In this document: in pieces, positions 1,093-24,659 of the stretch
Numbering within the stretch: the stretch's first letter is position 1
Layout: each line of letters starts with the position of its first letter
Virus record (IMG/VR): IMGVR_UViG_3300032462_000036
Span: 1-34,088 of that record
Strand: one strand, 5' to 3'
Origin: a virus
Length of the DNA stretch: 34,088 bases
The notes under the pieces: model-generated
Told to the model about the DNA's origin: nothing
What the model saw: the letters and a program-made list of their open reading frames with translations, nothing else
Databases searched by the model: none
Program-made: the position numbers and the translations under genes

Positions 1093-2616
1093 TCAAAGGT
1101 TGTCCAGGTTGATCCGGTCATTGCCGGAAAGCATGTCGTTTATCGCGTCCATCATCGGGTCGACTTGGTCATCGTGGCCGCTGCCAAGCCCGTCGAAGGT
1201 CGCAAGTTCGGATCGGAGGTGGTTAATCCATGGCGCATTCTTGGGTAGCCATACCATTCCCGAGGAAACCCAAGGCGCTGCATCCAGGCCTCGCGTATAT
1301 TTGTCCCTCTCGCGCGGGATGGCTTGGACGGGCACGCCCTTACGCTTGAGCCCCTGAATCAAGCCTGTGCCACTGGCCTTGTCCTCTATCTTGAAGCCGC
1401 GAGGGTGAATACCCATTGTCCGGTATCTGTTGTAGAAGAACAATGCATTCTTCTCTAGGTCCGGGGCTTCCCATTTTCCACGCAGCTGGTCGACCAGGTA
1501 GATGCCAGAGCGGTTCTTGGCCTTGCCCCAAAGCTGGAATACGCTGAAGTCGTTGCGTTCGCCAGTCTTAAGCGCTGTGTCACCGTACATCCCGAAATAG
1601 TCCATTTCAGGAAGCTCGTGCCACTCCCTGAAGCAGTCCATGTCGAAAAGCGCCCCCTCGATGCTCGTAGGTCGCTGGCGGTACTGGCTGTTGTATGTGT
1701 ACGCGTCGACCTTCAGAACCTCGATTTGCTCGAGGCTGTGCTTTTCTTCCCATAGCGGACCGACGGGCAGGTTGTGCGGAATTGGAATCCCGTGCGTCCA
1801 CTCCCTAGGATACTCGACGTCTGTGCTCTCGATGATAACAGGCAGATCAAGATGGTGCCAATAGTCGCCGGATCCGCCTCGGAGCAGATGCCCAACAAAG
1901 TCGTCGTTGTGCAGTCGCTGCATGTCCACAATGATCGGCACGCCCTCATGTGCCAGTCGGTTGCGGAATGTGTTTGTTGCCCTGCGATTGACCTGCAGCC
2001 GTTTGTTCGGGCTGAACGCGTCGTCAGGCTTCAGCGGATCGTCAATAACCAGCGCACCAGTGAACTTGGTCTTGTCCATGTAGCCAGCGCGGAAGCCTGT
2101 AATTGGTCCGCCGGCTGCTTTGGCCAGCACACCGCCGCCGGAGGTTGTCTGCCAGCGATCCTTGGCCTTGCTGTCTGTCTTGACCGTGAACTTTGGCTCC
2201 GCCATCGCTTGGTAGCTGTCGAGCGAGACAAAGTTTCGTATCTTTTCGCTGTTTTCACCAGCAAGCTGGTCTGAAAAAGTCGCGTGAATAAATCTCGCGG
2301 CCGGATTAATCTGAAACCCCTTGGCGATAAAGTTGACCACAGCAGACTCGGTCTTGGTGTATCCTGGAGGCATTGTGATGATCAGGCGTGTAATTTCCCC
2401 TGAATACACGCGGTCAAGAGTGTTCGTGATTATATGGTGGTGCGGACCGACGATAAGATCCAGACCCTCTCGTTCTGTAAAGTACCACCTCATGAACGGC
2501 AGAAGCGTTCCGCTCGGCCCCAGCTCCCGGCTTTTTCGAAGCGCTACGGCCGATGCGAGCAATTGAAGCGCAGCGGCGCTATCGATGGCGTTATGTTTTC
2601 CCAACACCAAATCCAA
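1093..2616 (-). CDS. terL: Terminase large subunit (ATPase and nuclease)
   Basis: This 507-residue protein is the DNA-packaging motor. The ATPase half shows a Walker A variant PPGYTKTE (83-90), a Walker B strand ALVIDDP (188-194) and a coupling motif QRLHNDD (233-239). The RNase H-fold nuclease half shows YGDTAL (Asp346), KIEDK (Glu411/Asp412) and GHDDQVD (482-486), giving the three acidic metal ligands. Length and motif order fit the Terminase_6/TIGR01630-like large terminases. The listed start is a TTG that overlaps the 3' end of terS by 26 bases; no strong Shine-Dalgarno is visible, and an in-frame GTG three codons later is an alternative. The gene lies between terS and portal, the classical order. 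Confidence 0.93.
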   Translation of the reverse strand: MDLVLGKHNAIDSAAALQLLASAVALRKSRELGPSGTLLPFMRWYFTEREGLDLIVGPHHHIITNTLDRVYSGEITRLIITMPPGYTKTESAVVNFIAKGFQINPAARFIHATFSDQLAGENSEKIRNFVSLDSYQAMAEPKFTVKTDSKAKDRWQTTSGGGVLAKAAGGPITGFRAGYMDKTKFTGALVIDDPLKPDDAFSPNKRLQVNRRATNTFRNRLAHEGVPIIVDMQRLHNDDFVGHLLRGGSGDYWHHLDLPVIIESTDVEYPREWTHGIPIPHNLPVGPLWEEKHSLEQIEVLKVDAYTYNSQYRQRPTSIEGALFDMDCFREWHELPEMDYFGMYGDTALKTGERNDFSVFQLWGKAKNRSGIYLVDQLRGKWEAPDLEKNALFFYNRYRTMGIHPRGFKIEDKASGTGLIQGLKRKGVPVQAIPRERDKYTRGLDAAPWVSSGMVWLPKNAPWINHLRSELATFDGLGSGHDDQVDPMMDAINDMLSGNDRINLDNL

Positions 2617-3106
2617 GCGCGGTCACGTCAATACCAAGTCTGCGCGCCTCGTCTAGGATGTGCGCCTCGGAAGCGAGATCAAGTGTTCTGATCGCGCCTC
2701 CGTTCGCGCCAGTGAGCTCTTGCTTGTCTGCCAGTCCCAAATCGCGACTGATAAGGCTCGCGTTCATGAGTCCTACGGCGGCGTGCTCAAACTTCTGCGT
2801 GTAGATAACTTGGTCGATAAGCTCCATGGCGGCACCAAAGTCAGCAACGTCTGTGCGATAGCGTTCCAGCCTTCCGATGCCAATGTTAAGGTAAATGGCC
2901 AATCCGCGCAGCGTGTACGGCCGCACCTTTTTCTTGTCGAAGCGTGTCACGTCACCTTGGTAGACTGCCACGTCCTCCTCGAGGAGCGGATGATCATCAC
3001 ACCACTGGAAGTACTCAGTCGCTGCCGCGAGTAGCTCGGCGGCTGTGGTGAATGGGTGGGATCCGTTGGAGAGATTGCGCCAAGCCTTCGTGCTGTTCAT
3101 GCGCAT
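2591..3106 (-). CDS. terS: Terminase small subunit, gp3/GP3_package-like
   Basis: This 171-residue protein should recognise the packaging site and load TerL. It matches the P22 gp3-type layout as remembered: an early AAELLAAATEYFQWCDD segment, then PYTLRGLAIYLNI (HTH-like), a helical middle, and a late LADKQELTGANGGAI motif, which resembles the ELTGKDGGPI motif seen near the C-terminus of this family. It overlaps terL. The start may be ATG 3106 or ATG 3100; the second overlaps the stop of a 15-codon reading frame that begins at about 3147 on the same strand. It is the first packaging gene after the NusG-like gene and is preceded by a GATTAGA element. Confidence 0.85.
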   Translation of the reverse strand: MRMNSTKAWRNLSNGSHPFTTAAELLAAATEYFQWCDDHPLLEEDVAVYQGDVTRFDKKKVRPYTLRGLAIYLNIGIGRLERYRTDVADFGAAMELIDQVIYTQKFEHAAVGLMNASLISRDLGLADKQELTGANGGAIRTLDLASEAHILDEARRLGIDVTALGFGVGKT

Positions 3107-6718: not shown

Positions 6719-7249
6719 ATGAAAACAATCGCTGACTACCCGATGCTGGTCGTTGACCCGAAACCGGACGACATCATGTGGATATTCGACGGCGAGTGGT
6801 CCATCCTAGACAACTTCGCGCCGCTGCCCATCGAGGTAGACATTGGCTGGGGCAGGAAGGTCTACCCGACCAGCGAGCACGCATTTGCAGCCGCCAAGAC
6901 AAATTCACCGCGATTGGCAGAAAACATCCGAAAAGCTCCTACCCCAGCGCACGCAAAGGGTCTGGGTCGCGCATGCAATCTCAAGAGCAGCTGGGAGGAC
7001 ATCAAGTTCCGCGTGATGTGGCATGTTTTGCAGCATAAGTTTGGCCAGCATCCTGAGGCATGCAAAGCGTTGCTGCAGAGCAATGACCGCTTGATCTTCG
7101 AAGGCACTACATGGGAGGATCGCGTGTGGGGAGTAGTGCGTCGTCCAGGATCAACGCGATGGGAGGGTCGAAACGCACTAGGCTCGATGCTGATGGAAAT
7201 CCGAGGCACGCTTAATGTGGCCTCCACAGTAAAGAGGCGCACCAAGTGA
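6719..7249 (+). CDS. NADAR family protein (predicted ADP-ribose glycosidase)
   Basis: This 176-residue protein contains the NADAR domain nearly end to end: SILDNFAP (28-35, the 'LSNF' motif), YPTSEHAFAAAK (49-60, 'YPTVEHYFQAAK'), Trp92, the KFGQ segment (107-110), FEGTTWEDRVWG (127-138, 'E-T--D-YWG') and GRNALGSMLMEIR (150-162, 'G-N-LG-ILM-IR'). Established family knowledge: NADAR proteins bind and hydrolyse ADP-ribose derivatives, and some reverse guanosine ADP-ribosylation made by DarT1-type toxins. In a phage this suggests repair of host-inflicted ADP-ribose marks or removal of NAD-derived signals; that role is inference. AAGGAGAACCTGA precedes the ATG. The following gene overlaps by four bases, suggesting co-translation. 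Confidence 0.88.
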   Translation: MKTIADYPMLVVDPKPDDIMWIFDGEWSILDNFAPLPIEVDIGWGRKVYPTSEHAFAAAKTNSPRLAENIRKAPTPAHAKGLGRACNLKSSWEDIKFRVMWHVLQHKFGQHPEACKALLQSNDRLIFEGTTWEDRVWGVVRRPGSTRWEGRNALGSMLMEIRGTLNVASTVKRRTK

Positions 7250-8490: not shown

Positions 8491-8758
8491 GAGTCGAAAC
8501 CGGTCACAAGCCGGTCTGGTTGGGGTGCCGCCCACCACTGATGATGACAGGCAACCAAGAAAGGACAAAACATGACACGCTGACAAGCTCCAGCAGACCT
8601 GCATGAGCTGGGTGGACGTAACCTAGCCAGAAAACAACCAGGTCGCCGCCGAAGGGTGGCGACCTACTATCTTGAGAAGCTGGTCAATTAAGACTGGCAA
8701 CGTACTGCGACTTCGATTAGAACTGTACCAACGCAACGCGAACCAGGAAGACACTAGG
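8491..8758 (+). other. Intergenic stretch with hairpin and promoter-like element
   Basis: This holds no convincing gene. It contains an inverted repeat ACCGG...CCGGT near 8500, two tiny frames (3 codons at 8573 after AAAGGACAAAAC, and 7 codons near 8600), a GC-rich hairpin GGTCGCC/GGCGACC (8641-8664) that may terminate or process the transcript, and a promoter-like element at 8695-8722. Confidence 0.5.
8695..8722 (+). promoter_or_regulatory. Promoter-like element, copy 2
   Basis: TGGCAA (8695-8700), a 16-base spacer and TTAGAA (8717-8722). The downstream CAACGCGAACCAGG resembles the sequence after the element at 10246. The -35 box is the poorest of the four. Confidence 0.4.
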
Positions 8759-11961: not shown

Positions 11962-12795
11962 CTACTCGGGATCCCACCAGCGCCCACCGCCGGAATCAGC
12001 GCCGCTCGGAAGCGGATTGCGCCGTAGCGCATGGCCTAAAGCCTCCACCACATGCATGCCAAACGCGTAGTGCTCGCGATCCCAAACTGCGCCGCCGATG
12101 ATCATGCCTCCGAATGGTCCAAGGCTCCTGCGGCTGCGCAGAACGACCTCGTCCTTTGCATCCTGATCGCCACGGACACGTAGGTCAGGAAACTTCTCCG
12201 CCACGAAGTGACGCAACCGCGGCCGACCAATCCGCGCAGCAATTTGTGCGCGATAGATATGCGAGTCCTGCTGATCAGCGGGTTTGAGCACATTGATCGT
12301 GCCCTTCCCGAACAGCGCGTTCCGCGCAGCCAACTCTGCCTCGTGCGCCATCCAAGTCACGCGCTTTCCGGATCCCAGTGCTGCGTCCGCCCATTGATCG
12401 TTGTTGCGCAGATTGTGTGTCGAAGCCCAGTTGATGTAGCACGCGTCGATGTTGTGCTCTCGGCCAAGGATAAAGAAGGTCCGCCGCCGTGCGTCGACAA
12501 CTGTTGCGCATCCAGAGGCTGCTCCGAAGATGGCCAGCAGCGCTCGCTCCTCTGCGCGGATGGCCTGCTTCACGTGCTTGACACGAAAAGGAAACTCCTC
12601 GTTGTACTTCTTTTCGGGCATCGCGAAAATCGAATCCTCCAGCGCCTCCTCTAGGCTCCAGTCAGCGAACCTGGTCACCACTCGAGCTATTGCCTCCGTG
12701 GTCGCCGCTGGACTCTCCGGTGTGGCAAATGTCATCTCCTCGACCGTTCCCCAGCGATCCGTCTTTCGTGCGCGCAGCTTTCTTCCCATTACCAT
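11962..12795 (-). CDS. Uncharacterised protein (277 aa)
   Basis: I do not recognise this protein with confidence. The start is well supported: AAAAGGAGTACGACC precedes ATG 12795. Order of features: a basic N-terminus (GRKLRARKTDR), a helical segment rich in Glu and Ala (about 30-90), a core with GCATVVDARRRTFFILGRE (about 113-133) that faintly resembles DUF7168/DUF2786-type phage proteins ('C-V------F-LVGRE-D'), a second basic part (RIGRPRLRHFVAEKFPDLRV), and a Gly-rich end. There is no signal peptide or membrane segment. It lies directly downstream of the repeat-rich region, so it is a candidate partner (binding protein or regulator) of those repeats; that is speculation from position only. 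Confidence 0.6.
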   Translation of the reverse strand: MVMGRKLRARKTDRWGTVEEMTFATPESPAATTEAIARVVTRFADWSLEEALEDSIFAMPEKKYNEEFPFRVKHVKQAIRAEERALLAIFGAASGCATVVDARRRTFFILGREHNIDACYINWASTHNLRNNDQWADAALGSGKRVTWMAHEAELAARNALFGKGTINVLKPADQQDSHIYRAQIAARIGRPRLRHFVAEKFPDLRVRGDQDAKDEVVLRSRRSLGPFGGMIIGGAVWDREHYAFGMHVVEALGHALRRNPLPSGADSGGGRWWDPE

Positions 12796-13034
12796 GGTCG
12801 TACTCCTTTTCCTGGATCCTCATTACCAAAGCCTGCTGGTTTTGCAAGCTTCTTCCGTATTATTGCCACTTTGAGAGTGAATCCCAAGCCTTTCAATAAA
12901 ATATCGCAATATTCTTAATAACAAGCCCCAACTAATCTCAAATCAGGTAATATTACTGCTAAAATATCAAAGATTTGAGTAATAATAACCAAATAATTAA
13001 ATAATATCATGATATTTTATACGCCAAACTTAAA

Positions 13035-13052
13035 TTATCCAAAGAAATCAAA
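13035..13052 (+). repeat. 18-base motif TTATCCAAAGAAATCAAA, copy B1
   Basis: Direct copy B2 is at 13445-13462 (one mismatch) and inverted copy B3 is at 13513-13530 (one mismatch). B1 precedes R1 directly, and B2 and B3 flank the tandem 10-base motifs. Confidence 0.75.
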
Positions 13053-13085
13053 CACTTCTGACAACTCCCCCCCTAGTCGCCAACT
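13050..13085 (+). repeat. Long C-rich repeat R1
   Basis: This block carries CTTCTGACAACTC, a run of seven C and TAGTCG. Its 25-base core (13055-13079) is identical to the R3 core, and the whole unit is inverted at R2 with 28 of the first 30 bases matching. Confidence 0.85.
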
Positions 13086-13136
13086 AATTTACCCTAAACC
13101 TTTGATTTCCTTACATAATATGAAATAAATCCAAAT

Positions 13137-13172
13137 AGCTGACGACTAGGGGTAGAGTTGTCAGAAGTGTTT
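13137..13172 (-). repeat. Long repeat R2, inverted copy of R1
   Basis: The reverse complement matches R1 at 28 of 30 bases, with further partial matches at the edge. R1 and R2 are about 50 bases apart and could form a long hairpin or cruciform. Confidence 0.85.
13139..13148 (-). repeat. 10-base motif CTGACGACTA, one of seven copies
   Basis: Inverted copies: 13139-13148, 13193-13202 (one mismatch) and 13201-13210 (one mismatch). Direct copies TAGTCGTCAG: 13418-13427, 13486-13495 and 13496-13505 (the last two in tandem). A degenerate direct copy lies in R1 at 13074-13083. The spacing and polarity suggest binding sites for an initiator or regulator. Confidence 0.75.
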
Positions 13173-13398
13173 GAAAACACAACACAATACCGCTGACGAC
13201 TTGACGACTACCCTTTTCCAAGACCTGCGGATTTCAGGTTTGAGATTACCTGCCCTGCGTTTATTATATTAACAAGTGTTTGACTTTTCCAATATTCTTG
13301 ATATTTTATTTGTGCGTTCAGTTTTGTCAGTTGCCACCCCTTTTTCATTTACAGGGCAAAAAGCGGATAGTCAGAGTATTTCCTTGTGTTATCAAAGG

Positions 13399-13427
13399 CT
13401 TCTGACAACTCCCCCCCTAGTCGTCAG
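13399..13427 (+). repeat. Long C-rich repeat R3, direct copy of R1
   Basis: The 25-base core (13399-13423) is identical to R1 and continues into TAGTCGTCAG. A degenerate fourth copy can be traced at about 13454-13495. Confidence 0.85.
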
Positions 13428-13598
13428 ACCCCCGAAAAGGCAACTTATCCAATGAAATCAAAGGGTACTGGCAGCGTGCGAATTGTAGTCGTCAGTAGTC
13501 GTCAGACAACCATTTGATTTATTTGGATAATTTTCCCTCGGCGGCCAGCTCATCTAGGCTTCGCGCTGATATTTTCGCATTAAAACTCGAAAACAATA

Positions 13599-16247
13599 CT
13601 AGAGTCTGCCAATAAGTGAATAATATGTAGTAGTTTTGCCATGCGCAATTTCCTGGTTGCAAAGCAATATCTTCTCTTCCACCAGCGAGTCCAGCTCTCG
13701 GTCGCAGACATATGCGGCGGCCTTGTTGCGCCTGATGAACGAACGCAGCTTGAATCTCTTAATCTCCACCCTGGTAATACCGAGGCTTGGCACGTTGACC
13801 CTGCGGAAGTCGCTGCCGAGACTTGTCACAAATTCAGGATCGTTTTCAATACGAACAAACATCTCTTTTATTCGGCTGTGGCACATGGCGATATAATTGT
13901 CGTCGTCGCTTCTAGTACTCGTGGCAGCGAGATGGTTTATTGACGCCATGACAATACTGTTCGCCCAGCGCACGCAGTCGACAGTGATAACTGGTGGCCG
14001 ACTTGGCGAAAGTTGCGCGAGTGCCGCGATGAGCGACAGCCTGCTGACGCGTTCCGGACCGCGGTTCATTAAGTGCGCGCGAGTCATCTCTCCGGCGGCC
14101 AAGGCATTTTGTCGCGCGTGGTCCATCTTCGCAATGAGGACGCCGAGCTCAGCGGCGGCATCAGCGTCAGGCACGAGCATATGAAAGCATCGGTACTGGC
14201 CGCGCCACGACATGCCGAGCGCGCCGTCCGGGTCTTTGGGGTTGGGCAGGCGTTCGGTTTGCGGTGCTGCGATGGACTCCATGTAGTCAAGCCAGAGCCT
14301 GACGTCTGTTGGTATGTCTCCCGCGAAAACACCGCGTTCTCTCTTCGGGAGATTCTTCGGATCCGAAACCGCGAAGCTGACGAATCGGCCGAGGAAGCCG
14401 CCCTCCGCATCCCGCTCTGAGAATGCCTCGGCGAAGCGTTCCGGCGTTGAGCTTAGGATGGCGCTGATGCAGGGGTTGTGGATTGCTGGCGTGGACTTGC
14501 CGCTGTCGGAGTTCTTGGACGCTCCGAGCCCTTCAACGAATGCTGACATGGCGTCTGTGAGCTTGGCCCTTTCGTCGTCGTGGTGGCCGCCGCTGGAGTT
14601 GCCCTTCATCGCGGATTGCCCTGCGCCGTACTCGCTGTCGATTACGATGGTGTTTGGGTACTGCGAGAGGTGGCGGGTGACCGCTGCGCCGGATGCGAAC
14701 ATGCGCACTTCTTGGCGCGAGTCGGCGGCTGGGAGCTCGTGGTACTTGTTGACCCTGCGGAACAGCTTGTTCGCGTCAGCCTTGCCTGTTCCCGAGTTCC
14801 CGATGAGCAGCATCGGAAGTGACGGCGGTGTGATGTGGCCTGAAAACCCCATGACAAACTTACCTTGGCATCTGTGCGCGACGACTCCGAGTGCGCCGAC
14901 GAGGCTGGGCACCAGCGTGGCCTTGGCCGAGAAGCTGGCGTTCTCTCGAACCAGCTTGCCGAGCACACCAGGCGCATGCCACGCGAGCCACTCCCACTCG
15001 TTGACGGTGTCTGAAAACTCGAACGGCACGTCCTTGGTCCAGTCGCCTCCCCAAAGCTGTTGCTGGTTTCGGATGCGGTCTGACTCGGCACGCTTTTGAA
15101 GCGCCGCCAATTCGATGGCTTCCTTCTGCGCACGATCTAGATCGGCTGTTTGCGCCTCGACAGACCAATGCACGAAACTGAGGCTGTTTACTCGCCTTTC
15201 GTTGATGGAAACCTCCATCGCAGGTAGGAGTCGCTGTGCTTGATCGCGGCCGTGTGCGAGGAAATAGTCCTGTCGTTTGTCACGGATCTGCGCAGCATGC
15301 GCCTTCATCTGGTTGTCGCCCTCCTTGCCCTTGTCAAACCAGATGTAGCGTGCGAGGTCGTACCCATCGTTGAAATACCAGCCGCCGTTGGTGGCGTGGC
15401 CGCCAGCCGCTGTTGGACCGCCGATGGAGGAGCTCAGTGTGAAGATTCCGCCATCGGGGTAGATGTCGGTGGCGAACGACTGGCCGGACTGCAGTTTCGG
15501 ATGGTGCCACGATATCCCGTTGCGCGTCACAAAGCCGAGCTGCTCAAGCAACTGCTCGGGTGGGTTTTCCGCGCGGAATGCATCAATATGCGAGTTGTGC
15601 CCGCTGCGCTTTATTCTTGACGTGTCCCCGCGCCGCTTTTGGTAATCTGTGTCGCGCAGCACGTAGTCTTGGTAGATCTCGATGGCGCGCGTGGTGAACC
15701 AGCTGTCAGCCAGATCAACTGCTGCGCCTTTCTGGTGGTGCGTCTCGTAGTGCTCGCCGACGTTTGGCAGGAAGCATATTCGATTGACTGAAACAGATGA
15801 AGAGTCTGGATGAAGGCTGAGCTTAGTCAGCGCCTCGTTCAACCCCTGCTGGTACGCAGCGTACGCGCGTCCTACAATTGGAATGGCGAGATGGATTAGA
15901 ATGCGCCATTTTCGATTTTCCGGTGTCGCGCCCTTGGTGGAGTACGCCAGCCATTCGCCGGTCGGGAAGATGCGCGTCATCGCGGACGTCACGTCCTGGA
16001 GGCTGGCGTTTCCTTTGTCGAGGTCCGCCCACATGTAGTGGAATTCACCTGCTGCGTTTTGCGCCGCGGCTTCCCTACCGTCCGCTTGTCGATACGTGGA
16101 TCCGATGGACCAGGCGGCGTCTTCCTTTTTGACCCGTTGTGGGCTGTCCAGCATTGCTACTACTTGGTGCCAGCTGATGCCGTCGTATGCCACCCCTGTG
16201 CCTGCGTGTGTCTGAAACCTTCCGACGCCATGGCAGAGTAAAATCAT
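13599..16247 (-). CDS. Primase-helicase, AEP-like primase plus DUF3987-type ATPase
   Basis: From ATG 16247 the protein has 882 residues. The N-terminal region carries an archaeo-eukaryotic-primase-like core: HYMWADLDKGN with the metal-binding D-x-D pair (Asp75, Asp77), then WLAYSTKGAT and RKWRILIHL. The C-terminal half is a P-loop ATPase of DUF3987 type: Walker A GNSGTGKA (483-490), Walker B TIVIDSEYG (around 533-541), and the family segment SSTPERFAEAF ... GGFLGRFV. It would unwind and prime phage DNA. ATG 16247 follows CGGGAG at nine bases; the frame stays open to a GTG at 16361 (920 residues) but no Shine-Dalgarno supports that start, and the extra 38 residues look low-quality. It is transcribed leftward, opposite to the other replication genes and toward the repeat region. 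Confidence 0.83.
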   Translation of the reverse strand: MILLCHGVGRFQTHAGTGVAYDGISWHQVVAMLDSPQRVKKEDAAWSIGSTYRQADGREAAAQNAAGEFHYMWADLDKGNASLQDVTSAMTRIFPTGEWLAYSTKGATPENRKWRILIHLAIPIVGRAYAAYQQGLNEALTKLSLHPDSSSVSVNRICFLPNVGEHYETHHQKGAAVDLADSWFTTRAIEIYQDYVLRDTDYQKRRGDTSRIKRSGHNSHIDAFRAENPPEQLLEQLGFVTRNGISWHHPKLQSGQSFATDIYPDGGIFTLSSSIGGPTAAGGHATNGGWYFNDGYDLARYIWFDKGKEGDNQMKAHAAQIRDKRQDYFLAHGRDQAQRLLPAMEVSINERRVNSLSFVHWSVEAQTADLDRAQKEAIELAALQKRAESDRIRNQQQLWGGDWTKDVPFEFSDTVNEWEWLAWHAPGVLGKLVRENASFSAKATLVPSLVGALGVVAHRCQGKFVMGFSGHITPPSLPMLLIGNSGTGKADANKLFRRVNKYHELPAADSRQEVRMFASGAAVTRHLSQYPNTIVIDSEYGAGQSAMKGNSSGGHHDDERAKLTDAMSAFVEGLGASKNSDSGKSTPAIHNPCISAILSSTPERFAEAFSERDAEGGFLGRFVSFAVSDPKNLPKRERGVFAGDIPTDVRLWLDYMESIAAPQTERLPNPKDPDGALGMSWRGQYRCFHMLVPDADAAAELGVLIAKMDHARQNALAAGEMTRAHLMNRGPERVSRLSLIAALAQLSPSRPPVITVDCVRWANSIVMASINHLAATSTRSDDDNYIAMCHSRIKEMFVRIENDPEFVTSLGSDFRRVNVPSLGITRVEIKRFKLRSFIRRNKAAAYVCDRELDSLVEEKILLCNQEIAHGKTTTYYSLIGRL

Positions 16248-16401
16248 TCGCGCGGACTCCCGTGGGACAGCTGATGTTGTCACCACAGGCAAAGCAACAG
16301 TCGTTGCGCGCAGCGAAGTCCCCTTGTAGCGCATTAGCGTAGAAAAAGGCAAGTCCCACACTTTGTGCAGTTAATCTCGCTTACGCACCAAATGTGGCCA
16401 G

Positions 16402-20813: not shown

Positions 20814-21689
20814 ATGCTGATGCTTGGTAACTGCGCGGAACGTCTGCGCGAGCTGGCGGATGGTTCAATTAACTTGACCGTCACGTCTCCGCCGTATGAC
20901 AACCTTCGCACGTACAACGGCAACAACGATCTCTGGAACGACGACGTATGGAAAACTGTGCTCACGGAGCTCTTCCGCGTGACTGCTGACGGCGGCGTTG
21001 TCGTCTGGGTAGTCTCAGACGCGACCATCAACGGCAGCGAGACTGGGACCAGCTTCAAGCAGGCACTGTTTGCGATGGAGTGCGGATTTAATCTTCACGA
21101 CACCATGATTTGGACAAAAGAAGGCGGCGGAGCTGTGGGAAGTACCTTGTGCTACACGCAGAACTTTGAGTACATGTTTGTTATGGCAAAGGGCTCGCCC
21201 AGCCGAGTGAACCTTATACGTGACCGGCGCAATCGTTATATTTCATTCGGCGGTGCGCAAAAGGGAAGAAGAAAGCCGACAGGCGATCTTAAACTTGAAA
21301 TTCGAAAAGCCAGCAAAGAGTTCGGCAGACGAAATAACTGGTGGCCTGTACAGCCAGAGGTCGAAAATGAACACGGGCATCCGGCTGTGTTTCCATCGAG
21401 TATCGCAAGGGATCACATAATGTCCTGGTCGAACACTGGTGACACTGTGCTCGACCCGTTTATGGGCAGCGGAACTACCGGAATCGCGTGTGTCCTACTG
21501 GATCGCAATTTCATCGGCATTGAGCTTGATCCAGACTTTTTCGCAATATCAGAAAAACGAATCCAGGACGCCAGAGTGGCCAGAAGTGGTACCCTTTTTA
21601 GTGGGCAGGAGTGGTTCGCAGGACATTCTGAGTTGCAAGACAAGGAAGAGTATGTGCAACTACCCATTATTGAAAACAAGGAGACGTAA
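20814..21689 (+). CDS. DNA methyltransferase, N4-cytosine/N6-adenine type (beta class)
   Basis: This 291-residue protein shows TSPPYDNLR (24-32, catalytic motif IV) before DPFMGSGTTG (214-223, AdoMet motif I), the beta-class order. The TSPPY form is most common in N4-cytosine enzymes but does not exclude N6-adenine. GIACVLLDRNFIGIELDPDF completes the AdoMet pocket. The middle is basic (RDRRNRY, KGRRKPTGD) and would be the target domain. The start ATG 20814 has no clear Shine-Dalgarno; a ten-codon frame begins at 20798 and overlaps it. It is the first of three methyltransferases in 4 kb. Confidence 0.85.
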   Translation: MLMLGNCAERLRELADGSINLTVTSPPYDNLRTYNGNNDLWNDDVWKTVLTELFRVTADGGVVVWVVSDATINGSETGTSFKQALFAMECGFNLHDTMIWTKEGGGAVGSTLCYTQNFEYMFVMAKGSPSRVNLIRDRRNRYISFGGAQKGRRKPTGDLKLEIRKASKEFGRRNNWWPVQPEVENEHGHPAVFPSSIARDHIMSWSNTGDTVLDPFMGSGTTGIACVLLDRNFIGIELDPDFFAISEKRIQDARVARSGTLFSGQEWFAGHSELQDKEEYVQLPIIENKET

Positions 21690-21692
21690 CAA

Positions 21693-22649
21693 TTGGGCAG
21701 TGCCATTGTAGCCGCCATCGACAAAGCGCGTAGAGAAACCGTTGGTGAAAAACGTCGCGGCCATCTTGGTGCCAGCTCCATTGGTGGTCGATGCCTTCGC
21801 CAAGCTTGGTATGGATTTCGCTGGGCATACGAGGAAAACCACCTAGGTCGAGTCCGGCGTCTTTTTGATCGCGGCCACGAGGAGGAGTTCCGCTTTAATC
21901 GGTATCTCCGCGCGGCCGGTTTCGAAGTGCTGGATTATTCGGAACGTCTCTGCTACTCGCCCACGCAAGCGGACGCGGGATCCGACTACCTGTACAGGTG
22001 TGTTCCTTGGCACGAAGATGTACCAGTACACTACACTGACGTCAGCAACGACGCTGCGCACATCGCACTTGCCGCTGATGCTGGCAAAGGTCCGAAGCAG
22101 TGGGGCTTCAAAGATCATCGGGGGCACTTCGCTGGATCCAGCGACGGCATGATCCGCGGTCCCGGACTCCCCGAAGGATGGGGTGGGCTGGAGGAAAAGA
22201 CGCACTCGGACAAGTCGTTCAAGAGTTTGGTCAAGGGCGGCGTGCTGACAAGCAAGCCTGTCCACTACGTTCAGATGCAGATTTACATGCATTACTTTGG
22301 ATTGAACTGGACGCTGTACATAGCTGTCAATAAAAACGACGACGAGCTCTACGCAGAGATTGTCCACTACAAGAAAGAGGTGGCGCTATACCACATCGAC
22401 AACGCCAAGAAGGTGGTGGAGTCGCGATTGCCTCCGATGCGGATCACAGATGATCCCAGCTGGTTCGAGTGCAAGTTTTGCGCGTTCCGCGAGATCTGCC
22501 ACTACCAAACCAGCCCTGAAAAGAACTGCCGATCTTGTACGTTTGCGGAGACAGCTGACGACGGTAAATGGCATTGCAACAAATTCAACAGCATCCTTCC
22601 GGACGACTTCATCCCCAAGGGATGCGCGGGATGGGATCCGATTAAGTGA
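21693..22649 (+). CDS. Cas4/AddB-like PD-(D/E)XK exonuclease with Fe-S cluster
   Basis: This 318-residue protein carries GSSDGMIRG (Asp151), GLEEKTHSD (Glu167-x-Lys169) and YVQMQIYMHYFG (catalytic Gln), the PD-(D/E)XK core, plus four cysteines placed as in Cas4/AddB enzymes: Cys34 (GGRCLRQAWY) and C-terminal CKFC...C (260, 263, 269). These nucleases resect DNA ends to give single strands for annealing, which fits the Sak4/DUF669 pair. TTG start after AAGGAGACGTAACAA. Extra C-terminal CRSC...HC residues may hold another metal. It overlaps the C5 methyltransferase by four bases. Confidence 0.82.
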   Translation: MGSAIVAAIDKARRETVGEKRRGHLGASSIGGRCLRQAWYGFRWAYEENHLGRVRRLFDRGHEEEFRFNRYLRAAGFEVLDYSERLCYSPTQADAGSDYLYRCVPWHEDVPVHYTDVSNDAAHIALAADAGKGPKQWGFKDHRGHFAGSSDGMIRGPGLPEGWGGLEEKTHSDKSFKSLVKGGVLTSKPVHYVQMQIYMHYFGLNWTLYIAVNKNDDELYAEIVHYKKEVALYHIDNAKKVVESRLPPMRITDDPSWFECKFCAFREICHYQTSPEKNCRSCTFAETADDGKWHCNKFNSILPDDFIPKGCAGWDPIK

Positions 22650-23419
22650 CAAAGATACTGTCCGTGCTGGACCTTTTTTCCGGCGCTGGTGGCGTTCACA
22701 TGGCGATGGAAAGAACGGGTACGTTCCGGACAATCGCGTTTTCTGAAATCAACAAACACGCAGCAGCTACGCTGAAAAGACGTTTTCCGAGCATTCCTAA
22801 CCTTGGCGATATCACAAAGATATGCGCTTTCCCCGCAGCGGACATTGTCTCCGGAGGATTTCCATGCCAGGATTTGAGTGTGGCCGGTACGGGGGCTGGA
22901 CTTTCCGGCGCGCGATCCGGGTTGTGGTTTCGAATGCTGTGTGCTATACAGCAGACAAATCCGCGCGGCGTTCTAATCGAGAACGTGGCTGCTCTTAAAG
23001 ATAGGGGTCTCGACGTTGTCCTACACGGGCTTTCCGAAGCAGGGTATGATGCGGAATGGTACACTCTGCCTGCTTCCGCCATTGGTGCTCCCCATAAACG
23101 CGAGCGCATCTACATTATTGCCTACCGTAAGTGCGCGGGAGGGCAAGGACTGGTCGAGGCCTTTCGTCCTTGCGAATCTCGACAATGGAACTGGTGCGGG
23201 CAAGCGGATTTGCAGTCTATCGCCGACAGCCCTTTTGTACCAGGAACCGGTTGGCCTAGACCCCTCCTTCGCAGAGTGGATGATGGGATGGCCGATCGGG
23301 CACACCGCCTTACGCAAATAGGAAATGGCGTAGTGGTGCCAGTTGTTTTTCAGATTGCGCAGCTTCTTTACTGCCGCGTTATGGAGAGATGGTGGGGCGA
23401 CGATACGGTTTGGCGGTGA
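22646..23419 (+). CDS. C5-cytosine DNA methyltransferase
   Basis: This 257-residue protein shows motif I DLFSGAGG (9-16), the catalytic GGFPCQDLS (PCQ 73-75), IENV (111-114), GAPHKRER (147-154) and motif X QIGNGVVVPV near the C-terminus. It methylates cytosine C5 at a short target to block restriction. The target-recognition region (about 160-215) is short, as is usual for phage enzymes. GTG start overlapping the upstream TGA. It sits between the nuclease and a palindrome. Confidence 0.9.
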   Translation: MTKILSVLDLFSGAGGVHMAMERTGTFRTIAFSEINKHAAATLKRRFPSIPNLGDITKICAFPAADIVSGGFPCQDLSVAGTGAGLSGARSGLWFRMLCAIQQTNPRGVLIENVAALKDRGLDVVLHGLSEAGYDAEWYTLPASAIGAPHKRERIYIIAYRKCAGGQGLVEAFRPCESRQWNWCGQADLQSIADSPFVPGTGWPRPLLRRVDDGMADRAHRLTQIGNGVVVPVVFQIAQLLYCRVMERWWGDDTVWR

Positions 23420-23690: not shown

Positions 23691-23938
23691 AGATCAATCG
23701 GTTTGTTCACGCGGACTTTGCTAAACTTGAAGCCTCCATTCTTGCGAGTGGGGGATTTACAGAGTTCGACGACTACTCTATGCACGCCACGATTCCCGGA
23801 AGGATAAGGTTGGTGGCAGACCTTCCGACAGCAGATCCATACGAAAGTGTCGATGTCGAATTTGATGAAGCGCCCAGCGAAGATCTTCTCCGAAGTCTTT
23901 GCTTCCCTTTTCGATCGGATACAGATATCAAAGCGTAG
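23687..23938 (+). CDS. Small hypothetical protein (83 aa)
   Basis: It begins MKINRFVHADFAKLEASILA; beta-rich middle, acidic (VDVEFDEAPSEDLL). Coupled to the upstream gene by ATGA. No family is recognised. Confidence 0.58.
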   Translation: MKINRFVHADFAKLEASILASGGFTEFDDYSMHATIPGRIRLVADLPTADPYESVDVEFDEAPSEDLLRSLCFPFRSDTDIKA

Positions 23939-23960
23939 GCAGCAGCAGGAAAGTGCACAG

Positions 23961-24659
23961 ATGAAGTACATGGGCAGCAAGCGTGCTATGGTCAAACACA
24001 TCCTTCCGCTTATGCTGGCTGCGCGAAAGCCAGGACAGCCTTGGATAGAGCCATTCGTGGGTGGCGGAAACATGATTGAGCATGTGGAAAACCAGAGGTG
24101 GGGCAACGATTTGAGCTTCAACCAGCTGGCGCTGCTGACTGCTGCGCGAGATGGATGGGTGCCTCCGGACTACGTGTCCGAGGCGCAGTACAACCACGTG
24201 CGGAACAACCAAAGCCTCTACCATCCGGCTGTTGTGGGTTTTGTTTCCGTTCAATGCAGCTTCGGAGCCACGTACTGGGGCAGCTACGCGAGACCGCCAA
24301 ATGGCACAAACTGCGCGGGCGGTCCGTCGCGTTCAATTGTTAAGCAGGGAAAGAAGCTTGAGGGTGTTCACTTCACGTGCATGTCCTACTCGGACATGCC
24401 AATCTCGGCAAACACGCCAAGTCTGATTTACTGCGATCCGCCATACGCAGGAACCGTTGGGTACAGCGACAAGTCGTTCAATTCGCTTCAATTCTGGAAG
24501 TGGTGTCGCGAGCGTGTTGCGGAAGGGCATACTGTCTTTGTCAGCGAATATAACGCACCTCCCGACGTAAAGGAGGTCTTACGGATAGAGCACAGCACGC
24601 GGGTTAACAAGGGAAACGCCACTAAGCGCGTCGAGAAACTCTTCCAGGTTGTGACCTGA
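23961..24659 (+). CDS. D12-class N6-adenine DNA methyltransferase (Dam-like)
   Basis: This 232-residue protein has alpha-class order: KYMGSKR (2-8) then motif I EPFVGGGNM (30-38), and later the catalytic YCDPPYAG (DPPY 159-162). The MKYMGSK start is typical of D12 enzymes acting on adenine. The start ATG 23961 follows AGGAAAG; the longer frame overlaps the previous gene and lacks support. It is shorter than E. coli Dam. It overlaps the helicase start by one base (TGATG). Confidence 0.87.
   Translation: MKYMGSKRAMVKHILPLMLAARKPGQPWIEPFVGGGNMIEHVENQRWGNDLSFNQLALLTAARDGWVPPDYVSEAQYNHVRNNQSLYHPAVVGFVSVQCSFGATYWGSYARPPNGTNCAGGPSRSIVKQGKKLEGVHFTCMSYSDMPISANTPSLIYCDPPYAGTVGYSDKSFNSLQFWKWCRERVAEGHTVFVSEYNAPPDVKEVLRIEHSTRVNKGNATKRVEKLFQVVT

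Follow-up and report, generated by a model that had tools for sequence, protein, structure and literature searches.

A putative replication origin with inverted box pairs and a co-varying stem-loop downstream of a phage primase-helicase gene

Does the long non-coding gap that follows a phage primase-helicase gene serve as the start site of replication? The window analysed here, that is, the whole stretch of DNA under study, is an entire IMG/VR virus record of 34,088 bases, which is possibly a fragment. The region of interest comprises about 640 bases, which separate the 3' end of the primase-helicase gene from a gene whose function is unknown (Table 1). The original prediction held that this region is non-coding and adjoins the primase-helicase gene; both points stand, as no ORF of at least 60 aa lies wholly inside 12900-13598 and the region begins just past the 3' end of that gene. 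The true start of the primase-helicase gene may be at 16247, as the homologue in the close relative L006 begins at residue 39. Judging from features of the DNA itself, we put the probability that the region is the phage's putative replication origin, directly downstream of its own primase-helicase gene, at roughly 0.68.

The region contains the most AT-rich DNA of the window. The stretch 12961-13020 has exactly the 8 G/C in 60 bases first reported and is the lowest 60-mer in the window, in which the lowest 60-mer outside the region has 19 of 60 G/C. The palindrome noted in the same segment is perfect. Clustered motifs lie adjacent to this AT-rich segment, as in iteron-type origins, and the middle stretch, between the overlapping B-boxes and R3, is moderately AT-rich.

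Table 1. Features of the region and its flanking genes, in window coordinates.
Feature	Position	Strand	Evidence
Flanking gene, 277 aa, function unknown	11962..12795	-	L006 homologue 56% identical, order kept
AT-rich segment, candidate DNA unwinding element	12890..13034	.	AT-richest 150 bp of window, 77% AT from 12890
Perfect palindrome AATATCATGATATT	13003..13016	.	sequence check
A-box 1, TTATCCAAAGAAATCAAACA, module X outer	13035..13054	+	16/20 identical in L006
R1, 5' arm of long stem-loop	13048..13089	+	inverted repeat I2, 42 nt, 88% complementary; co-varying in L006
B-box dyad 1, inverted, 6-bp CCCCCC spacer (R1)	13058..13083	.	B-box scan
A-box 2, TTATGTAAGGAAATCAAAGG, module X inner, overlooked in the original prediction	13099..13118	-	15/20 identical in L006
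R2, 3' arm of long stem-loop	13133..13174	+	inverted repeat, fold, co-variation with L006
B-box dyad 2, CTGACGACTA-GGGGTA-GAGTTGTCAG (R2)	13139..13164	.	B-box scan
Two B-boxes overlapping, 8 bp apart	13193..13210	-	first copy identical in L006
R3, third R-unit copy	13391..13426	+	direct repeat of R1, 92%
B-box dyad 3, inverted, CCCCCC spacer (R3)	13402..13427	.	B-box scan
A-box 3, TTATCCAATGAAATCAAAGG, module Y	13445..13464	+	20/20 identical in L006
B-box tandem pair, perfect, TAGTCGTCAGTAGTCGTCAG	13486..13505	+	repeat search, B-box scan
A-box 4, TTATCCAAATAAATCAAATG, module Y	13511..13530	-	17/20 identical in L006
Primase-helicase gene, 920 aa as called	13599..16361	-	PHROG 3022 DNA primase E = 9e-39; DUF3987; alignment

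Two families of short motifs, which we refer to as A-boxes and B-boxes, are found in the region. An 18-base motif had been described in three copies (13035, 13445 and, inverted, 13513); all are present, but the count was too low, as a fourth, weaker inverted copy lies at 13101-13118. The A-box as defined here has 20 bases, and its four copies form two inverted pairs; when up to three mismatches in 20 are allowed, exactly these four sites are found in the whole window, and shuffled sequences give none. The inverted pairs bound two modules of about 85 bp each. Module X (13035-13118) consists of a forward A-box, a B-box dyad with a CCCCCC spacer and a reverse A-box, and module Y (13445-13530) of a forward A-box, two tandem B-boxes and a reverse A-box. 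The A-boxes begin with TTATCCAAA or similar, not with TTATCCACA, and 12880-13600 contains no DnaA box (TTWTNCACA); the arrangement is thus not that of a DnaA-box origin.

The B-box is the 10-base motif TAGTCGTCAG, for which seven copies had been claimed. The repeats are real, including the perfect tandem pair, but their number varies: there are four exact copies, two with one mismatch and ten at up to two mismatches (counted over 13058-13505), so that a figure of seven depends on the cut-off. Across the whole window, TAGTCGTCAG occurs 36 times at two mismatches where 20.6 are expected, and none of 100 shuffles reached as high a number. Several copies of a short motif are thus clustered in non-coding DNA, as is characteristic of iteron origins.

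Longer repeats, R1 to R3, enclose some of these boxes. The 25-base core CTTCTGACAACTCCCCCCCTAGTCG is indeed identical at 13055-13079 and 13399-13423, and the inverted copy at 13137-13172 was recovered as well. The best 36-base matches have 32 identities in inverted and 33 in direct orientation, against maxima of 28 and 27 in 200 dinucleotide shuffles. The suggestion that R1 and R2 can pair into a long hairpin was borne out by folding with DNA parameters (z = -11.4 and -11.7, one per strand); the stem is 42 nt and the loop 43 nt long, and the structure begins some 425 bp beyond the stop codon of the primase-helicase gene.

Conservation of the repeats at the same locus in relatives had been proposed as a check. 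Similar DNA was absent from the phage records searched; among the viral contigs searched, one close relative was found, L006, the primase of which is 84% identical. It keeps four A-boxes, seven B-boxes and the R1/R2 stem. The two gaps align collinearly with 63% identity and are flanked by homologous genes whose order is kept. Within pairs, the A-boxes start 64 and 65 bp apart in L006 and 64 and 66 bp apart here, and the distance between the pairs is 421 bp in L006 and 412 bp here; the starts of modules X and Y are separated by 410 bp. The A-boxes are 85% identical to those of L006, whereas the rest of the gap is 53% identical; the B-boxes (63%) turn over faster, with some copies identical and others gained or lost. 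A forward-strand match between modules hinted at an inversion of a segment between the two genomes; we rejected this, as the segment aligns best in line with its flanks and the region is quasi-symmetric. A loose A-box scan of viral contigs revealed no other loci with clustered A- or B-boxes, and other contigs that carry tandem TAGTCGTNAG proved to hold unrelated repeats, without A-boxes.

The R1/R2 helix provides a further point of comparison. In the alignment of the two gaps, 20 of 20 consensus pairs are kept in both sequences. Each arm has five substitutions, all on paired positions, which make up five double compensatory changes with no broken pair; a two-base insertion is also present on both arms. 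If substitutions are independent, the chance of full coincidence is about 6e-5, and sliding the partner arm by 1 to 6 columns as a control leaves 2-9 pairs. Within the limits of two aligned sequences, there being only one close relative, this shows that R1/R2 complementarity has been maintained between the window and L006. The cause of the kept pairing could be selection for a hairpin or cruciform, the presence of two inverted protein sites, or template-switch correction between the inverted repeats.

GC skew had been named as a second check. The cumulative minimum of the window lies at 13,873, near the region, but the signal is weak and its exact minimum is not reproduced in L006, in which the cumulative curve stays roughly level as far as the region and climbs beyond it, the region lying only near the minimum. 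The origin reading thus withstands the conservation check and, the skew being compatible with an origin, this one too; however, this support needs to be interpreted cautiously, as the L006 curve is only near its minimum and gene direction is a confounding factor.

The main rival readings are an early control region and a structured RNA. The former, in which phage or host regulators would use the boxes as operators and the leftward genes (11962-12795 and those after it) would have their promoters in the AT-rich DNA, appears unlikely to us. The gap sits ahead of a gene start, the B-box dyads with their 6-bp spacers resemble dimer-binding operators, and 12700-13700 contains 12 sigma-70-like promoter matches where 2.1 are expected. 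These are consensus matches only, however, and a rise in their number is expected in AT-rich DNA; moreover, an operator would not need some 640 bp, two symmetric modules set apart and a co-varying stem of 42 nt. The control-region and origin readings also overlap, as origins can themselves hold promoters.

A structured non-coding RNA, or a long structured leader, across R1/R2 and the modules would fit the co-variation of the two arms, and both strands of the region fold far better than shuffled sequences (z = -8.5 and -8.9; L006, z = -5.0). The folding excess is nevertheless equal on both strands, as the symmetry of the DNA predicts, and the A-boxes are conserved in their primary sequence as well. 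The region showed no terminator-like site, and Rfam returned no family at the gathering score, its weak matches being chance ones of a long hairpin to miRNA models. We therefore regard an RNA as quite improbable. A site for partition (centromere-like), packaging or site-specific recombination, for which paired short repeats and long inverted symmetry would also have precedents at centromere-like and recombinase sites, is very improbable: no ParA/ParB or integrase was found among the ORFs scanned (a subset of the ORFs of the window), the region is collinear rather than inverted relative to the L006 flanks, and packaging, which the original prediction had entertained together with partition, is unlikely given that the terminase genes lie at 1093-3106, about 10 kb away.

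If the region is an origin, which protein would act on it? The window encodes a replication set consisting of a Sak4-like recombinase, an SSB, a Cas4-type exonuclease, a helicase, a clamp and a family-A polymerase, and the module resembles that of Kilunavirus KL1, Septimatrevirus and Queuovirinae-like phages. The initiator would most likely be the primase-helicase itself, or else a small DNA-binding protein. It may bind the B-boxes, the A-boxes or both on double-stranded DNA, and the inverted sites would set the initiator complex symmetrically. The AT-rich segment would then melt, possibly with extrusion of R1/R2 as a cruciform. On the strands exposed in this way the helicase domain would load and prime, and the family-A polymerase, clamp and SSB that the phage encodes would carry the forks onward.

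The primase-helicase has a helicase-type domain of the DUF3987 type and an N-terminal domain with invariant WADLD-like and RKWR motifs. The latter looks like an AEP primase by eye; profile searches gave no AEP primase match for this domain, and no homologue of the primase was found in the genome collection searched. A match to the NrS-1 primase was discarded, as it probably derives from the KL1 row of the alignment, and a profile built from this protein's N-terminal domain together with its closest kin shows no such match. For the whole primase, the AF2 model (pLDDT 31) could not be used. The C-terminal 101 residues were modelled with confidence (pLDDT 83), but the model has no match among solved structures; the winged-helix-like look of the C-terminal 100 residues, judged by eye, is thus only a tentative sign of a DNA-binding fold. 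The primases of CRP-821 (L179) and Vibrio phage 1223 (L180) have the N-terminal domain of the window protein in common with it, at about 30% identity, and a profile that includes both matches RepA-type RecA-fold helicases, not DUF3987, an apparent swap of the helicase domain. Elsewhere in the window, three DNA methyltransferase-like genes lie within a 4-kb stretch inside the replication module, on the plus strand (20814-21689, 22646-23419 and 23847-24659), a NADAR-domain protein is encoded at 6719-7249 (plus strand; Pfam E = 4e-27), and a type II hammerhead ribozyme at 8492-8556 (plus strand) reaches the Rfam gathering score (39.1 bits, E = 1e-4).

Our survey covered 21 phages whose primases are related, counting the window and L006, and took in the DNA within 6 kb of the primase. 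The AT-richest 150 bp lies 0-1.6 kb past the primase stop codon in 13 of the 21, a result which is only descriptive, as the relatives were hand-chosen and are not independent; the remaining eight depart from this rule, and in some of these the AT-rich gap is found upstream of the primase. The blocks past the primase lie mostly in annotated gaps and often contain inverted repeats, and their sequence differs between lineages (GGGGATAGGGG in a Stenotrophomonas phage, GGGGCAGA in ART, TTATACAATTT in CRP-821). An A-box matrix scan of 18 wider relatives was not significant (an equally good result came from 75 of 400 column-permuted matrices), its best lead being TTCTTCAATGAAATCATAAG in Achromobacter phage ART, at 17.6 bits the top of its neighbourhood. 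In small samples, the folding of most gaps from wider relatives exceeds that of controls only somewhat; the excess is clear in CRP-821 (z = -5.8), with values near -3 for ART and the Stenotrophomonas phage.

In CRP-821, a 175-bp gap directly past the primase (L179, 9218-9392) is dense with TTATACAATTT repeats, which run in both orientations, and forms a compact analogue of the region. KL1 (L127, 12361-12729) and SCUT-S3 (L177, 36309-36621) resemble each other in an AT-rich gap that lies 1.3-1.6 kb beyond the primase; both gaps hold tandem TATTGATTAAAAGT repeats, and that of KL1 also an inverted pair, TAAGTCCTTGATT / AATCAAGGACTTA. Microcystis phage Me-ZS1 (L175) has an 850-bp gap without annotated genes at 48147-48996, full of GTTATGAACAG / CTGTTCATAAC repeats and with several copies of CTGTGGATAA that match the DnaA box (TTATCCACA), which makes it a second origin candidate in that phage.

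It is possible, though we offer this tentatively, that these siphophages, a large group, have in common a composite class of origin. It would consist of a self-complementary, AT-rich block past the primase-helicase, the position and symmetry of which are kept while its motifs turn over, each primase-helicase co-evolving with its own stem-loop and boxes, such that stem-loop recognition as in pRN1 and iteron recognition as in P4 are joined in a single origin. To our knowledge, replication origins are unmapped in most tailed phages, and in the literature searched we found no report of a mapped origin for the Septimatrevirus/Queuovirinae-like group. If the positional rule holds, origins would become predictable in many sequenced phages of that group, cultured ones included. 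Motifs that turn over while position and pairing stay conserved would reveal the joint evolution of initiator and origin. The region thus gives a testable prediction of a start site for a large phage group.

How does the putative origin compare with known systems? The gaps of KL1, Septimatrevirus and Queuovirinae-like phages share with it a similar position, an AT-rich core and, often, G-run or AT inverted repeats, whereas a sequence motif shared with the window is not demonstrable. In phage P4, the alpha primase-helicase binds repeats at the origin. The likeness lies in a primase-helicase as initiator (in the window only a probable one) and in short repeats in both orientations, arranged in separated modules; the repeat sequences differ, however, and the window protein is only a putative binder of its repeats, whereas alpha binds its own. 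The P4 primase is of the TOPRIM type (PMC4234260). For the NrS-1 primase-polymerase, recognition sequences have been proposed as the start site of the genome (PMC8718748, PMC7102993). NrS-1 likewise has a phage primase-helicase, and one TTTGGTTA lies at 12986-12993 inside the AT-rich segment, but the N-terminal domain of the window protein has no match to the NrS-1 polymerase; we did not retain the TTTGGTTA as an NrS-1-type site, as one copy per window is expected by chance and the L006 gap has none.

In pRN1, replication requires a stem-loop of about 100 nt that closely follows the primase-helicase gene (orf904), the putative origin; it has a 21-nt stem and a 58-nt loop, lies 54 bp past the stop codon and is kept as a structure although its sequence changes (PMC4234260). 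The authors of that study report a similar stem-loop in phage BIP-1, for which they propose the same, and state that direct evidence of origin function is lacking (PMC4234260). As in pRN1, a large stem-loop lies in non-coding DNA past the primase-helicase gene of the window, and its pairing is kept despite sequence change. The two differ in distance from the stop codon (54 bp against about 425 bp) and in protein, that of pRN1 having an AEP primase, an SF3 helicase and a winged helix that has been shown, and that of the window a DUF3987 domain, with AEP and winged helix not demonstrable. Furthermore, pRN1 is without iterons, whereas the window adds two box families and a strong AT-rich segment. 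The original prediction of an AT-rich segment beside iterons thus stands in so far as an origin is the best-supported reading, but iterons are only part of the layout, which also includes inverted A-box pairs, B-box dyads and a co-varying stem-loop. Taken together, the inverted A-box pairs, the B-box dyads with 6-bp spacers and the co-varying stem suggest a pRN1-like downstream stem-loop combined with iterons, and the candidate origin is best read as a pRN1-type stem-loop, P4-type iterons and an AT-rich unwinding segment, working by a largely conjectural mechanism.
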